Part shown: positions 21,946 through 27,892 of the stretch, in pieces
How the letters are laid out: every line of letters starts with the position of its first letter
Position numbering within the stretch: position 1 is the first letter of the stretch
Assembly (NCBI GenBank): GCA_019637115.1
Contig: JAHBWH010000066.1
Span: forward strand, 1-38,844
Length of the DNA: 38,844 nucleotides
Direction of reading: 5' to 3'
From: Myxococcales bacterium
GTDB taxonomy: Bacteria; Myxococcota_A; Polyangia; Polyangiales; Houyiibacteriaceae
Notes under the pieces: model-generated
What the model was told of the DNA's origin: nothing
Seen by the model: the letters and a program-made list of their open reading frames with translations, nothing else
Database searches by the model: none
Program-made: the position numbers and the translations under genes

Positions 21946-22067
21946 CGGCCGAGGACTAGCAGACCCCCCGCCCGGCTCCAGCCGACGCACGGCCGGACCC
22001 AAGCTCGGAGGGCCCCTTGCGGTCGCACCCGCATCTCGCCGATGATCGCGCGAGCAGGGGGGGACGC

Positions 22068-22451
22068 ATGCGAGGGACGACGTCGACGAAGAAGCGTTTG
22101 CGGCTCGCCGTGGGCTCGGCCCTCGTCATCGCGCCCGCGTCGCTGCTCGCGTGCGGCCCCGAGGCAGCCGAGGCCCCGCCGCCCGTGGAGCCGATGACGA
22201 ACCCTGGCGTCGAGGTCATCGAGCCCGTCGAGCCCGTCGAGCCCGTCGAGCCCGTCGAGCCAAGCCCGAACGTCAGCCCCTTCGACGACGAGGTCGAACC
22301 AGAGGCCGAGGTGGGCGAGCCCACGTCTCCGAGCACGATGTCGACAGCGACCACGACGGCGCTCGACCGTCCGCCCACCGTGAACGTGCCGGCGTCCCCG
22401 CCGCTGCCGACCGCGAACCCCGTCCCGACGAGATCCGAGAGGCCCCGATGA
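22068..22451 (+). CDS. Small Pro/Glu-rich lipoprotein A (first of three sisters)
   Basis: 127 aa. A basic start, a VGSALVIAPASLLACG signal with lipobox LLAC, then a disordered tail containing EPV repeats (four GAGCCCGTC 9-mers at 22221-22256) and ending with VNVPASPPLPTANPVP. The ATG at 22068 follows a G7 run that acts as the ribosome-binding site. Its stop overlaps the next start (ATGA at 22448-22451). The signal core VGSAL and the VNVP and PLPTANP motifs recur in the next proteins, so the genes look like paralogues. No family is recognised. Probably membrane-anchored and working with the ferritin-like protein of the same operon. Confidence 0.75.
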   Translation: MRGTTSTKKRLRLAVGSALVIAPASLLACGPEAAEAPPPVEPMTNPGVEVIEPVEPVEPVEPVEPSPNVSPFDDEVEPEAEVGEPTSPSTMSTATTTALDRPPTVNVPASPPLPTANPVPTRSERPR

Positions 22452-22726
22452 CACGCACCCGAACGCTCCGATTCACCGTCGGCAGCGCGCTCCTCTGCGC
22501 GCCGCTCACCCTCGCCGCGTGCGGCGGCGGCAACGAGGAGGTCCCCGACGAGCCGCACGTGAACGTGCCGCCCGATCCGGGCTCCGGAGGCGAGGTCCCG
22601 GAAGACGGGATCGACTGGGCCGTCACGAACCCTGGACCGCCCGACGACCCCGAGCCCACCGTCAACCCCGGCCCAGGCGATCGGCCGCTACCGACCGCCA
22701 ACCCCGCGCCCCCGGAGACGCCATGA
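22448..22726 (+). CDS. Small Pro-rich lipoprotein B (second sister)
   Basis: 92 aa. Signal VGSALLCAPLTLAACG with lipobox LAAC, then a Gly/Pro/Asp-rich tail carrying VNVPPDPG, TVNPGPGDRPLPTANP and a final PPETP. It starts inside the stop of the previous gene (ATGA) and its own stop overlaps the next start (ATGA at 22723-22726), so translation of the set is coupled. No domain is recognised; its likely role is as a surface or periplasmic tether. Confidence 0.75.
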   Translation: MTRTRTLRFTVGSALLCAPLTLAACGGGNEEVPDEPHVNVPPDPGSGGEVPEDGIDWAVTNPGPPDDPEPTVNPGPGDRPLPTANPAPPETP

Positions 22727-22956
22727 GCGCACGGATCGAGCGGCGCGGCCGAACACTCGGCGTGATGGTGGGGAGCGCGCTCCTCGTCGGCGCCGCCGCC
22801 TGTGGGCCGGACGAGCTGCGCGTCAACGTGCCCGCCGAACCCGTCGAGACGATCAACGTCCCTCCCGACCCACGGCCCGTCGAGGAGGAAGCGCCGGCGC
22901 CGGACGAGGACGAGCGTCCACCACGCGTGAACCCCGGACCGACCGACGACGAATGA
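22723..22956 (+). CDS. Small Pro/Glu-rich lipoprotein C (third sister)
   Basis: 77 aa. Signal VMVGSALLVGAAACG with lipobox AAAC, then an acidic, proline-rich tail with VNVPAEP, INVPPDPRP and VNPGPTDDE. It overlaps both neighbours by ATGA (start at 22723, and stop shared with the ferritin-like start at 22953). The shared VGSALL signal core and VN(V/P) tail motifs show descent from the same ancestor as the two upstream genes. Function unknown. Confidence 0.75.
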   Translation: MSARIERRGRTLGVMVGSALLVGAAACGPDELRVNVPAEPVETINVPPDPRPVEEEAPAPDEDERPPRVNPGPTDDE

Positions 22957-23921
22957 GCGGGCCCTCGAACGAGGCGCGCGGCGACGCCGAGGCGCTGCTG
23001 ACTCCGACCACGACCAAGCTCGGCTCGATGCATCGGAACCAGGTGCATCGCGCGCCCTGGCCGGACTTCGACGCCTTCGACGTCGCGCGCTACGACGTCG
23101 AGCTGCGGCGACACGCCGCGTGGCATTGGATCTCGCGCGCGCAGGCCGAGCACGGCTCGGTGCACCAGTTCAGCGCCGTCACGCACGCGCTCACCGAGGC
23201 GCGCGCCCCGGTCGAGCTCCTCGGCGCGCTCGCGCGCTTGCTCACCGACGAGGTCCGCCACGTCGAGCTCTGCGCGCGGGCCGCGAAGGCCTTCTACCCC
23301 GAAGGAGACGCCGCCTTCTTCCGGTGGCGCACGCCGCGCGCCCCCTGGCCCGACGCCCCAAGCGTCGACGCCGACCGGCGCGAAGAGAGCGAGCTGCGCC
23401 TCCGCGGCTGGGCAGCGCGGGCGATCCTCACGGCGTGCGCGCTCGGCGAGACCCTGAGCGAGCCGATGCTCGAGGCGATCGTCCTCGTCGCGACCGATCC
23501 GCTGCCTCGCGCGTGCGCCGAGCAGATCCTGAAGGACGAGCGCTTCCACGGCCGCTTCGGCTTCGAGGCGCTCGCGGTGCTGGTACCGACCCTCGACGAC
23601 GCCGAGCGCGACGCGCTGCAGACGCAGCTCTCGCGCGCGCTCGCCGGCTTCGAGCGGACGACGTGCGGGAAGGTTCGCGTCGAAGACCTCGCGGGCCGCG
23701 AGCTCGAGATCACGGCCCCCGAGCCCGGCGCGCCGCCGAACCTCGGCACGCTCACGGAGGAAGAGTTCGCCGCGATCTTCTACGCGACCCTCGAGGCGCG
23801 CATCTTCCCCGCGCTCGAGCCGCTCGGCCTCGACCCGATGCGCGCCTGGGCCGAGCGCGGCCGCTTCCCGGCGGCGCGGCGAGAGGCGAGCGCCGAGGCC
23901 CGCGCCACGACCGCGGACTGA
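22953..23921 (+). CDS. Ferritin-like diiron-type four-helix protein
   Basis: 322 aa, no signal peptide, so cytoplasmic. The metal-ligand pattern of ferritin-like proteins is intact: E66-H67 (QAEHGS), E100-x2-H103 (TDEVRHVEL), E166 (GETLSE) and E196-x2-H199 (KDERFHG), each in a predicted helix. The N-terminal 50 residues and the region after 230 are outside the bundle. Family members store iron, oxidise substrates or act as oxygenases; which applies cannot be told from sequence. It is the last gene of a four-gene, ATGA-coupled operon behind three small lipoproteins. It ends 51 bp before the convergent nuclease gene. Confidence 0.75.
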   Translation: MSGPSNEARGDAEALLTPTTTKLGSMHRNQVHRAPWPDFDAFDVARYDVELRRHAAWHWISRAQAEHGSVHQFSAVTHALTEARAPVELLGALARLLTDEVRHVELCARAAKAFYPEGDAAFFRWRTPRAPWPDAPSVDADRREESELRLRGWAARAILTACALGETLSEPMLEAIVLVATDPLPRACAEQILKDERFHGRFGFEALAVLVPTLDDAERDALQTQLSRALAGFERTTCGKVRVEDLAGRELEITAPEPGAPPNLGTLTEEEFAAIFYATLEARIFPALEPLGLDPMRAWAERGRFPAARREASAEARATTAD

Positions 23922-23972: not shown

Positions 23973-24944
23973 TCAATCACGGACGATCGGGAGGACGATG
24001 GCCTCGATCCGGATCTCGGGGTGCTCCTCGACGATACGCTCCCGTTCGGCCTCGAGCGCCTCCGAGAGCTCGCGCGCGGAGGTCCTCGTGGATCCTCTCT
24101 GCCCCGTGAAGCCGACCACATAGAAGCCGTGGGTGCGGTCGTGACCGAGCAAATACCTAGCCACGAGCTGGCTCCACAGCGCCCTCCGCCACTCGCAGTT
24201 CTTCGACCACTTCACCTCGATGGGGATCGAGACCACCTCGCCATCTCGGGTCCAGCTCGCGACGAAGTCGGGCTCATCACCGTGCCGTCCCTTGGGCTCC
24301 CGCGAGAGCACGACCCGATCGCCGATCGCCATCTTGAGGCGCGCGTGCAGATACTCCTGGAGGGCTCGTTCGCGCGGGACCGCCCCGCCTTTGCCGAGGA
24401 GCAAGAACTCGTGCTCTCCGACGTCGCCTGCGATCGCATGTAGCGCCTCGTTCACGTCGAAGAAGAGGTCGTCGATGGATCGAGCGCCCGCGACGCCTCG
24501 CAAGGCGTCGTGGATCCACTGGACGGTGGGCCGACAGGGCGGCGGCGAGAGCATGCTCAACTCGTCGCGAAGCCTCATCTCCTCGGAGAGCGCGTCAAGC
24601 CAGCGCCGCTGCCGCGCTCGCTCGCTCTCGGGGAGCAGCGCGAAGACCCGCTCCGCGTAGCCACGTCTCACAACCGCTCGGAGGAGAGTCGAGCGGAGGG
24701 CCTGAAGCCGATGGCTCTCCGTGAGGATTCCGTCGGGGAGGCGCTCCCACGGGACCTGCGCGGCGCAGAGCCGGCCGAGCAACCGGAGCGCGTCGTCGTC
24801 AGACCACTCGTCGAAGCGCGACGCGGTCGCGCGGAACTTCGGGGCCAGCTCCCGAAGGCATTCGCCAAGTCGCGCGGTCGCGGCGGTCGGGATGCGCTCA
24901 ATCACCGCCAGTCCGGCGCTACGGGTCGCCCGATCCACCAGCAA
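23973..24944 (-). CDS. PD-(D/E)XK superfamily nuclease (cassette member 4)
   Basis: 323 aa from a TTG at 24944. The N-terminal 150 residues are helical. The C-terminal part has the nuclease core: a helix with Glu/Arg, then DEPDF (Asp as metal ligand), a strand, and IPIEVKWSKN (Glu-x-Lys), followed by a strand FYVVGFTG, the pattern of restriction-endonuclease-like folds. Coding signals (high G/C at third positions) continue upstream of the TTG into DDALGIACTRW, back to a run of nine G at 24977-24985. With eight G the preceding 397-aa frame would read straight into this one, giving a 730-aa protein. The true start is therefore uncertain. Probably DNA or RNA cleaving in a defence-type cassette. 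Confidence 0.72.
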   Translation of the reverse strand: MLVDRATRSAGLAVIERIPTAATARLGECLRELAPKFRATASRFDEWSDDDALRLLGRLCAAQVPWERLPDGILTESHRLQALRSTLLRAVVRRGYAERVFALLPESERARQRRWLDALSEEMRLRDELSMLSPPPCRPTVQWIHDALRGVAGARSIDDLFFDVNEALHAIAGDVGEHEFLLLGKGGAVPRERALQEYLHARLKMAIGDRVVLSREPKGRHGDEPDFVASWTRDGEVVSIPIEVKWSKNCEWRRALWSQLVARYLLGHDRTHGFYVVGFTGQRGSTRTSARELSEALEAERERIVEEHPEIRIEAIVLPIVRD

Positions 24945-24972
24945 CCAGCGCGTGCAGGCGATGCCAAGCGCG

Positions 24973-26166
24973 TCATCCCCCCCCCGCGCGCCTGACCGCC
25001 CAGCTTCGCAACGTCCCGTCTACCGCGCCGCGCTCGCGCGCGAGGTCGAGGAGCCGAGCGCGATGCTCGACTGTCGCGTCCGACTCGTCCGAGAGCAGCT
25101 CACGGAGCGCGCTGGCGAGCCACGCCGGGGGGATCGCCAGCGCGACCACGGGACGCTCCCGCGTGCGGAGATCCAGTCGCAGCTGCTCAGCCGCGACCTC
25201 GCGCGTCACCTGCGACTGATGCTCCGCGCAGAGCTGGACGCAGTACCCCAACTGCTCGTGACCGACGAAGAGCGCTGTCGGCAGCCAGCGACGGATGGTT
25301 GGGGGGTCGAGCCACTCGAAGCGGTCCGATTGGACCACCGCGTGGACGAACGCGGCTCCCTCGTCGGCGAGATGCGACGGGTAGGCCATCCCCCGCGGAA
25401 CCGGCGTCGGCTCGACATGCTTCAGCAAGGTGCGGAGCTCCTGGAGGATCCGCGTCCGCAGCCCGGGATTCACGTCGCGGAGCGTCCCGCGAAACCCTCG
25501 CTCGGCCGACCGGTTGAAGCAGAGGAAGGTCACCCAACGGAACCGGGTCGCGGGATCCGTCTCCGATTCGAGGCGACTCTCGAGCTGCTCGGCCAGGCTT
25601 GCTCGGGACGACGTCTGCGGAGATGCCCGCCACTCTGCTTCCTCGCGGTGTCTTGCTTCGAGCCACTGACTCCACGCGTCCGCGTAACGGTCGCGAACCA
25701 CCTCGCGAGCATGCTCCGACGTCCGCGCCAACCGGAAGAGGGTGTCTTGGGCCCGTGCCGAGTGCTCGGCACCCGATCCAGAGAGCTCGGCGAGCCAGTC
25801 GACGTCGTTCTCCGCCGGGGAGACGCCCCAGACGCTCCGCTCGAAGCAACGCCTCCGAGCCTCGACGTCCATCTCGAGCCGCTCGGAGAGCGCCTCGCGG
25901 ATCGACTCACGATCCGCATCCAGCACCAACGAGAGCCATCGTGCATCCAAAGGGCCCTCCCGAACGAGGAGTCGTCGCGCGTGCGCGTGGAGCCTCGGAT
26001 GCGCGCTCTGCTGCTCGGGCTGTAGGACCCAATGAGCGTGGTCGAGCGTCATCGAGTCTTCAAGGTCGTCGTAGAGGAGCCCGACGAGGCCGTCATTCGA
26101 GAACCGGACCATCGCGGCATGTCGCCATGTCCCGAGATCGAGGCGCAGCTTGGCGAGCCACAACAA
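24973..26166 (-). CDS. Unrecognised helical protein (cassette member 3)
   Basis: 397 aa from a TTG at 26166 (the ATG at 26112 is an alternative). Almost entirely predicted helical, rich in Arg, Glu, Leu and Trp, with long amphipathic helices that suggest HEAT/ARM-like repeats, but no motif I can name. Its last codons (RRAGGG, stop) are read through the G9 run at 24977-24985; losing one G fuses it to the nuclease. At its 5' end the coding bias continues upstream of 26166 to about 26190 without a start codon and meets the end of the 213-aa frame, offset by one base. It may therefore be the middle of one larger protein broken twice. Confidence 0.55.
   Translation of the reverse strand: MLWLAKLRLDLGTWRHAAMVRFSNDGLVGLLYDDLEDSMTLDHAHWVLQPEQQSAHPRLHAHARRLLVREGPLDARWLSLVLDADRESIREALSERLEMDVEARRRCFERSVWGVSPAENDVDWLAELSGSGAEHSARAQDTLFRLARTSEHAREVVRDRYADAWSQWLEARHREEAEWRASPQTSSRASLAEQLESRLESETDPATRFRWVTFLCFNRSAERGFRGTLRDVNPGLRTRILQELRTLLKHVEPTPVPRGMAYPSHLADEGAAFVHAVVQSDRFEWLDPPTIRRWLPTALFVGHEQLGYCVQLCAEHQSQVTREVAAEQLRLDLRTRERPVVALAIPPAWLASALRELLSDESDATVEHRARLLDLARERGAVDGTLRSWAVRRAGGG
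24977..24985. repeat. Homopolymer run of nine C (G9 on the coding strand) at a gene junction
   Basis: Nine consecutive C on the plus strand. It lies at the end of the 397-aa frame and the upstream edge of the nuclease frame; one base fewer joins the two. An identical-length tract breaks the first gene of the same cassette (27755-27763). Confidence 0.95.
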
Positions 26167-26734
26167 CTCGCGGAGCTGATCTCCTCGATCGCCAGCGCTC
26201 GAGCGGACCAGCGAGCTCCGGGCGAATCTGACTCAGGGGTTCGACCAGCCCCGTCGCTTCATCTCGAAGCGCGCCTTCGTCGTCGGTCAGGAGGCGCTGA
26301 AGCGCACGAACCGGGAGCGCGCAGAGTCGCCCCGCGGCGAGCGACTCCTCCACGTGTCGCTCCCGAAAGACCAGAGCCCCGTCGCTGCGTGCCACGAAGA
26401 GGTCGGTGCGGGAGAGCGCTCGCCACTCGTCCTTCGAGGCCAGTGGGAAGTCCTCGTGGTCGAGCGCCCGACCCGAGAGCAAGGCGAGCAGCACCATCCC
26501 CGCCACCGCGGGTGGAGCGGCCTCGACCTGCGAGGCCGTGACGTGGACGCACACGTCTAGGGCCCCTCGTTCGAAGCTGAATGCGAGCACGGCGCGGGCA
26601 CGCGCCCACGCCTCGTCCGCGTCCTCTCCGACGCGGAGGGACGGGGCTCCATCGGCCGCGAGCTCGGTGCCTCCGAACCGTCGTTCGAGCTCGAGCCGGA
26701 ATCCCTCGGAAGCCCCGTGGACGACGATGAACAT
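26093..26734 (-). CDS. Unrecognised 213-aa protein (cassette member 2)
   Basis: The ATG at 26734 lies 2 bp after the stop of the AlbA_2/GHKL gene, so it is co-transcribed and probably translationally coupled. The N-terminus MFIVVHGASEGFRLELERRF and the following segment look like a small alpha/beta domain. I do not recognise a family. The last 27 codons or so (after LAGPLERW) lose the high third-position G/C that marks real coding in this genome, while the overlapping +1-shifted frame gains it. The natural C-terminus is therefore probably not the one encoded here, but continues into the 397-aa frame after a one-base shift. Confidence 0.5.
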   Translation of the reverse strand: MFIVVHGASEGFRLELERRFGGTELAADGAPSLRVGEDADEAWARARAVLAFSFERGALDVCVHVTASQVEAAPPAVAGMVLLALLSGRALDHEDFPLASKDEWRALSRTDLFVARSDGALVFRERHVEESLAAGRLCALPVRALQRLLTDDEGALRDEATGLVEPLSQIRPELAGPLERWRSRRSAPRVVVARQAAPRSRDMATCRDGPVLE

Positions 26735-26736
26735 CG

Positions 26737-27892
26737 TCAGCTCGGCGCCTCCAATCGGAGCGTCACGCGCATCTCGCCGCTTCGCACCTCGAACTCCGGC
26801 TCGGGATACCCAGCCTCGGTGAGCTCTCGAATCATGTGCACGACCCCGACGCCCATATCCTCGCGGTAGCCGAGGCGATGGAGCATGTTCGCGAGGTAAG
26901 GGTTGCGCCGCTGCGAGACCCCACCAAGGCGGATGCTGTCGACGGTCATGTGATTCAAGAGGCCACCCGGGTTGATGACCTCGACGCGGTCGTCGAAGAC
27001 GAAGATCCGCACTTGAGAGGGGACGGCGTAGTCTCGGTGGGCGAGCGCGTTCGCAACGACCTCGCGCCAGACGTCGGGAGGTATGCGACGGTCGACCCGC
27101 TTCAGCCCGGAGCTCGACGACGAGCTCGCTGGCGTGTGAAGCTCGAGAAACGCGACGGCCTGCTCGAGCTGGTGCACCACCGTCCCTCGGAGCTCCTTGC
27201 GGTCCACGAGGTCTCTGCTCATCGCGACGCCCCGAAAACGCACCGCCGTGACGTAGGCATCGATCACGAACCGTTGCGGCTCGGCCGAGAGCATCAAGAC
27301 CCCTGCGAGCGTCGGGGTCCCGTCATCCGTGATTGCCCGCAGGGCGCGCAGGAGCGTTTCGTCTTGCACCCTCGCGCGCGAGGGAAGCCGCGCGACCAGC
27401 TCCGCGATGAGCACGGGGTCCAAGTCGGCACGGTTCGCTCGCGGCGCTGGCTGCTCATCGAAGTGTGCCGTGCTCCCATGGAGTAGGTGCTTGAGCTCCT
27501 CGGACGTCGCCTCACGAGACATCGCTCCGTCGCGTACGAAGAACCTCGAATCCCCCCGGAACGGACGCTCGGGGAGGAACCCGGGGACCGCCACGTGCAG
27601 AACGGGCCCCTCGTCGAAGTCCAACACATCCAGGTCGACGCGGAGGGCGGGGTTGCAGGAATCCCGTGCGATCTGGGCGACGGTCCGTTGGGCAACGTCG
27701 ATGTCGTCGAGCCCCGTCACCGTTCCGTCGTTCTCGACGCCGAGGAAGAGATCTCCCCCCCCCGCTGTTCGCGAAGGCGACCAGCGCTTTGGCGATCGCG
27801 CGGCGCTCTGGCAGGCCCGGCCGCGCCGACTTCAGCTCCGTGCGGCCGTCCTCTCCTCGCGCGAACCGGACTCGCAGATCCTCCAAGGTCAC
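26737..27892 (-). pseudogene. AlbA_2 (Schlafen-like) + HATPase_c_4 protein, frame broken at a G9 tract (cassette member 1)
   Basis: Starting at a GTG (27892), the first 45 codons give the AlbA_2 opening (EDGRTELKSARP, then ALVAFANSGGG). At a run of nine G (27755-27763) the frame is lost. With eight G it would continue as DLFLGVENDGTVTGLDDID, the expected family sequence, for a 384-aa protein. Downstream, the intact frame (26737 to about 27754) holds the rest of AlbA_2, a linker with a Ser run, and a GHKL-type ATPase module (VVANALAHRD as N-box, EVINPGGL, RNPYLANML, GVGVVHM). Such proteins are regulators, helicase-related proteins or defence effectors. Genuine pseudogene, phase-variable gene and sequencing error are all possible. 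Confidence 0.75.
27755..27763. repeat. Homopolymer run of nine C (G9 on the coding strand) inside the AlbA_2 domain
   Basis: Nine consecutive C on the plus strand encode the GGG of the conserved ANSGGG motif. Eight would keep the AlbA_2 frame open. Runs of this length are prone to slippage in cells and to length errors in sequencing. Confidence 0.95.

Follow-up and report, generated by a model that had tools for sequence, protein, structure and literature searches.

Frame breaks in a putative NACHT-type defence operon of a Myxococcales bacterium

The locus

The DNA described here comes from a Myxococcales bacterium (GenBank assembly GCA_019637115.1, contig JAHBWH010000066.1). The source assembly comprises 434 contigs, and all of the inactivating changes reported below are known from this one fragmented assembly. 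The whole stretch that was analysed, 38,844 nucleotides long, is referred to as the window. On its minus strand lie a large gene for a predicted nuclease and, directly upstream, a partner gene, with the following features.

23973..26734, minus strand: large gene, helical region followed by a predicted C-terminal PD-(D/E)XK-type nuclease; without a P-loop, read-through length about 918 aa
23976..24419, minus strand: nuclease domain, from alignment A2 and a match to the C-terminal part of the NCBIfam HyoA model (E 7e-8)
24977..24985, minus strand: G9 tract (C9 on the plus strand), at which the coding frame breaks between helical region and nuclease
26185..26197 (approximate), minus strand: further frame break of the same sign, no homopolymer; from codon scores and segmentation, and spanned by the BLAST alignment to relative L177
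26315..26440, minus strand: post-NTPase motif, residues 99-140, LF..rsdG.lvFrerhvEEsLAAgrL; its profile match is collinear with the nuclease match
26737..27892, minus strand: partner gene, upstream, SLFN AlbA_2 and HATPase_c_4 domains (Pfam); orthologue in L179 (E 2.2e-70)
27755..27763, minus strand: second G9 tract, in the Gly-rich AlbA_2 motif, which breaks the partner gene

Elsewhere in the window, at 22050-22960 on the plus strand, three consecutive small ORFs resemble lipoproteins, each having a signal peptide followed by Cys and a tail rich in Pro and Glu, and appear to form a local family.

Reading frames of the large gene

The run of nine G is real: the plus strand carries C9 at exactly 24977-24985, and the only other G/C run of at least eight in the window is the one at 27755-27763. 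The 397-aa frame (26166-24973) terminates just past the first of these tracts, as ...VRRAGGG-stop. The nuclease frame stays open back through the tract, where it reads RGGDDALGIACTRW..., and its first listed start is a TTG at 24944. An earlier note on this DNA had described that frame as open and coding-like upstream of the TTG and the TTG as having no ribosome-binding site. Both descriptions held, as the coding signal reaches the tract in the segmentation and no Shine-Dalgarno-like sequence was found upstream of 24944.

A Viterbi segmentation by codon usage, blind to the tracts, placed minus-strand frame switches at 24991/24992, at about 26192 and at 27763/27764, and a sliding-window codon scan agreed with these positions. 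The switches at 24991 and 27763 are the two G9 tracts. No comparable cluster of frame breaks was found elsewhere in the window by the codon-frame segmentation.

The remaining switch, which had been overlooked in the earlier note, lies within the large gene. The upstream ORF (26734-26093, minus strand), which opens with ATG 26734, and the 397-aa ORF sit in different frames, and the coding frame passes from one to the other at about 26185-26197, where there is no homopolymer. A BLAST match spans this break, pairing residues 88-220 of the read-through with 287-431 of L177. The gene unit is therefore longer than 730 aa. It had been proposed that eight G at the 24977 tract would restore a complete 730-aa protein; this proposal was not supported, as the gene starts at ATG 26734 and is broken a second time near 26190. 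The coding sequence is distributed over three frames (26734 to about 26190, about 26190 to 24985, and 24985 to 23973), and the full read-through of about 918 aa is still without the P-loop of its relatives.

A single chain and its relatives

For comparisons, the frames of the broken gene were joined into one sequence, with X marking each join. In G361, a genome of the same order, a single uninterrupted frame of 1390 aa (L177) matches all three window ORFs in order (N-terminal ORF, E 7.6e-8; 397-aa ORF, E 2.7e-20; nuclease ORF, E 3.5e-20). One phmmer profile alignment crosses the tract junction and aligns residues 340-914 of the read-through with 706-1294 of L177 (E 2.4e-33), two segments of nearly equal length (575 and 589 residues). 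A profile built from five single-chain relatives finds two collinear matches in the read-through, to the nuclease and to the post-NTPase motif, the counterpart of which in the relatives reads 'LFssagqgrvgFaHqtyaEfLAAsYL'.

Relatives of the nuclease were found in the phylum and on plasmids of Rhodococcus, Niveispirillum and Dolichospermum. In all of the dozen or so other whole relatives the nuclease is the C-terminus of one long chain, encoded in a single open frame of about 1,330-1,700 aa, and none of them has the two-gene form. The shorter frames among the relatives are L139, which lies at a contig end, L142, which has an in-frame stop, and L144, which is differently built. Because the whole relatives are single chains and the alignment to G361 crosses the junction, the reading as two separate genes fails, and from the sequence comparisons the tract appears to sit within one gene and not between two. 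The claim of a single chain comprising the 397-aa ORF and the nuclease is borne out by their ordered match to the G361 frame; whole homologues encoded as two genes, which would have spoken against it, were found neither in the phylum nor in Rhodococcus, Niveispirillum or Dolichospermum. The fusion claim thus appears right in substance.

Searched alone by tblastn against plasmids and a 282-genome sample of the phylum, the 397-aa ORF returned no relatives, and it was placed through its match in G361. Alignment A2 contains no stretch conserved enough for a pattern scan, and a degenerate-pattern scan of genome contigs with the nuclease sequence (P0002) found no relative. Searched as DNA, the upstream flanking genes showed no conserved neighbourhood in four relatives.

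Several further observations concern individual genes of the family. L142 (G246:C166, 3460-3464, minus strand) is a family member split by a single in-frame TAG into halves of 856 and 565 aa. L144 (G255:C49, 3718-2, minus strand) consists of the family ATPase, a short C-terminal part and then an apparent second AAA ATPase module. The large gene of L138 (G057:C47, 5548-680, minus strand) opens, as judged by eye, with a ParA/MinD-like stretch (MNRPVIIACVGAVDDEPLG...) ahead of the ATPase, an N-terminal extra that is absent from the other relatives. At L034 (G183:C519, 5281-4523, minus strand) a small gene identified by Pfam as HipA/PI3-kinase-like lies upstream of the NACHT-type nuclease gene and overlaps it, a partner different from AlbA_2. 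In the window itself, residues 1-85 of the large gene (26734-26480, minus strand; MFIVVHGASEGFRLELERRFGG...) had no match in the searches made and occupy the place of the relatives' ATPase.

The partner gene and the operon

In the partner gene Pfam recognized HATPase_c_4 (E 5.5e-24) and SLFN_AlbA_2, the latter in two pieces. The second G9 break falls inside a Gly-Gly-Gly motif of this gene, and the Gly-rich AlbA_2 motif is intact in relatives (NAGGGRLVLGVEDDGTVTG in L179 and NTRGGELVLGVEDD in L116). The stop codon of the partner gene lies 2 bases before ATG 26734. In G415 (L179, same order) and G057 (L138, same phylum) an AlbA_2 orthologue is found directly upstream (E 2e-70 and 1e-24, respectively) and overlaps the start of the large single-chain gene by ATGA, so that the operon of an AlbA_2 gene and the large gene exists in intact form in two other genomes of the phylum. 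As the partner stop and the ATG are two bases apart and this operon junction is conserved, 26734 is very probably the true start of the large gene. The two genes probably form an operon with translational coupling.

The pairing of AlbA_2 and nuclease is recurrent and not universal: the stretch read at the G361 gene contains no AlbA_2 match, and in G224, source of the closest AlbA_2 match in the 282-genome phylum sample (47% identity), that gene is not followed by a nuclease gene. The cassette did not turn up in G296, a genome of the same genus, or in most of the order, and absence from a genome of the same genus is as expected of accessory defence genes. The partner gene shares its domains with defence-adjacent AlbA_2/HATPase_c_4 ('RecG-like C-terminal') proteins and overlaps PADLOC models for pAgo-associated proteins. 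Unlike the pAgo-linked proteins, it is paired with a NACHT-type nuclease, as it also is in G415 and G057, and there is no Argonaute.

The nuclease domain and its family

Residues E206, D240, E257-x-K259 and Q273 of P0002 are invariant in alignment A2, and the codons of E206, D240, E257, K259 and Q273 begin at 24371, 24269, 24218, 24212 and 24170. The D...ExK residues are conserved and the order of elements fits alpha-beta-beta-beta-alpha in a single-sequence model that is itself poor (pLDDT 47). The conserved E, D, E-x-K and Q, together with this low-confidence predicted order, would fit a PD-(D/E)XK nuclease. The nuclease part has no match in Pfam or PDB; ribosomal protein S3, which appeared in the PDB profile search with an E of 0.0016, was taken as a chance match. 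Pfam and PADLOC searches of the window fragments returned nothing for the large gene.

Residues 172-332 of P0002 match positions 1255-1425 of HyoA, a NACHT antiphage protein (NCBIfam NF058534), which are the last 170 positions of that model (E 7e-8); the score of 30.5 bits is below the curated HyoA cut-off of 1200. A genome of the same family, G027, matches HyoA over nearly its full length in one chain (926 bits). The NACHT antiphage protein EruA (NCBIfam NF058535) is matched by L121, L123, L034, L138 and L177 with E 1e-11 to 1e-71, below its cut-off of 1000 bits, and is not reached by the window fragments themselves. Overall, the relatives match EruA/HyoA with E 1e-11 to 1e-278 and with scores of 43-926 bits, against NCBIfam cut-offs of 1200 bits for HyoA and 1000 for EruA.

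The window copy contains no NACHT/STAND P-loop ATPase core, and only about 85 residues precede its post-NTPase motif. A P-loop is present in L177 (GEPWAGKT) and in L179, and the GEPWAGKT region is absent from the read-through. Unlike HyoA, then, the window copy falls short of the 1200-bit cut-off, has no NACHT P-loop, is preceded by an AlbA_2 partner and is broken. By these comparisons the large gene would be a distant relative of EruA and HyoA, with a predicted antiphage role. Being below the cut-off and without a P-loop, it stands outside HyoA/EruA in the strict sense while carrying a HyoA-like C-terminal region.

G tracts in the window and the genome

Long G tracts are not rare for DNA of this composition, and as many G8 words arose in 20 of 100 sequences obtained by dinucleotide shuffling of the window. 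The genome holds 37 runs of G9 or longer, about 22 of them away from contig ends. By our own arithmetic the chance of two such tracts within 2.8 kb is about 0.15, and the clustering of the two tracts was dropped as evidence for this reason. Their reading frames are less ordinary. Among the coding tracts sampled elsewhere in the genome, 18 of G8 were in frame and 2 were shifted, and all five of G9-G10 outside the cassette were in frame, giving 23 in frame against 2 for tracts of G8 or longer. The automatic classifier labelled the 24977 tract a 'strand change' since an antisense frame tied on one side; it was counted as a shift on the basis of the frame ends, the open nuclease frame and the segmentation. 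The earlier statement that two such tracts are unlikely by chance therefore stands for the frames and fails for the tract lengths and their clustering. That both cassette tracts are off by the same amount was correct, and this is atypical of the genome. The assembly is thus generally right at such tracts, and the two off-frame tracts are a property of the cassette.

Contigs C130, C147, C181, C243 and C374 of the source assembly (G000) carry long poly-G or poly-C at their ends that resembles sequencing artefacts. Poly-G of this kind suggests short-read chemistry, in which homopolymer indels are less common.

Origin of the frame breaks

The explanation that we favour, with a probability of roughly 0.6, is a broken accessory NACHT-type defence operon that has lost its ATPase core, was damaged by slippage and indels, was inactivated recently and is decaying. 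The first gene would encode an AlbA_2 and GHKL-type ATPase protein with a putative partner role in defence, and the second a helical sensor region ending in the PD-(D/E)XK nuclease. In intact relatives, by analogy with the named families, an N-terminal STAND/NACHT-like ATPase may sense infection and release the C-terminal nuclease. In the window, replication slippage in a G-run would have broken each gene once, a further indel would have broken the second gene near 26190, and the ATPase core of that gene would have been lost. In this copy the two genes together carry three frame breaks, the P-loop is missing, and the helical region falls short of the length it has in G361. At the same time its catalytic residues are intact, no in-frame nonsense codon occurs except at the breaks, and codon bias is still strong in each fragment. 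As decay would erode these features, they count against it; we infer that the inactivation of the operon copy was recent. The large gene could also be a natural short form without the ATPase, as its start lies exactly at the conserved operon junction.

An error of sequencing or assembly, with cells truly in frame and the consensus wrong at both tracts and near 26190, is an unlikely source of the breaks. Indel errors classically arise in homopolymer tracts, the nuclease is intact in other respects, and the 434-contig source has artefact-like poly-G at contig ends. However, almost all other coding tracts of this length in the assembly are in frame (18 of 20 for G8 and 5 of 5 for the other G9-G10), which makes systematic error a poor explanation; moreover, the third break has no homopolymer and no comparable cluster of breaks occurs elsewhere in the window. 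Reversible phase variation, with both G9 tracts as contingency switches for the AlbA_2 partner and the nuclease and the assembly caught in the OFF state, seems to us somewhat less probable again. A phage-defence gene of another high-GC bacterium is known to be switched by a G tract: in Streptomyces coelicolor the Pgl system depends on the G tract of pglX and is on when the tract has 8 G and off once it has contracted to 7 (PMC4365076). The pglX run is of similar length and its length sets the frame, but the protein is unrelated, and switching was shown there at a tract that decides, whereas the window gene also has a break outside any tract. In the window both tracts are long and shift the frame equally, which sets them apart from the other coding tracts of the genome. 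Yet a conserved Gly-Gly-Gly motif encoded in G-rich DNA accounts for the AlbA_2 tract. In most relatives the gene is free of G/C runs of at least 7, with runs of 9-10 in 3 of about 20 ORFs, and conservation of a tract at the junction was not observed. Tract length alone does not decide the open frame here, and with the break near 26190 no combination of tract lengths makes the second gene whole. A more elaborate version, in which the AlbA_2 gene and the nuclease are switched by independent G tracts, the nuclease is armed only when both are in frame and the third break is a consensus error, we regard as improbable.

Two further readings are given hardly any weight. Polymerases and ribosomes can slip on homopolymer runs, and programmed transcriptional or ribosomal frameshifting at the G-runs could in this way yield the full protein; but no tract was seen conserved at the place in the relatives, which read through in frame, and the third break has no slippery sequence. 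A helical protein with a separate nuclease started at TTG 24944 has in its favour that this TTG is present in the nuclease frame and that the G246 family member is likewise split into two ORFs. Against it, the TTG has no ribosome-binding site, the coding signal extends upstream of it to the tract, whole relatives are single chains, and the G246 split is one in-frame TAG in a broken copy with no second gene. Because the third break has no tract and the P-loop is missing, the operon is regarded as disabled and not switched; the 24977 tract is best explained as slippage damage, and the frame breaks most likely represent ordinary loss of function in an accessory gene.

With these comparisons, the three ORFs of the window are settled as one gene and connected with EruA/HyoA, a class of NACHT antiphage proteins of bacteria. 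The operon of an AlbA_2 gene and a NACHT-type nuclease recurs in three genomes, and the existence of an intact relative makes it testable as a defence system.
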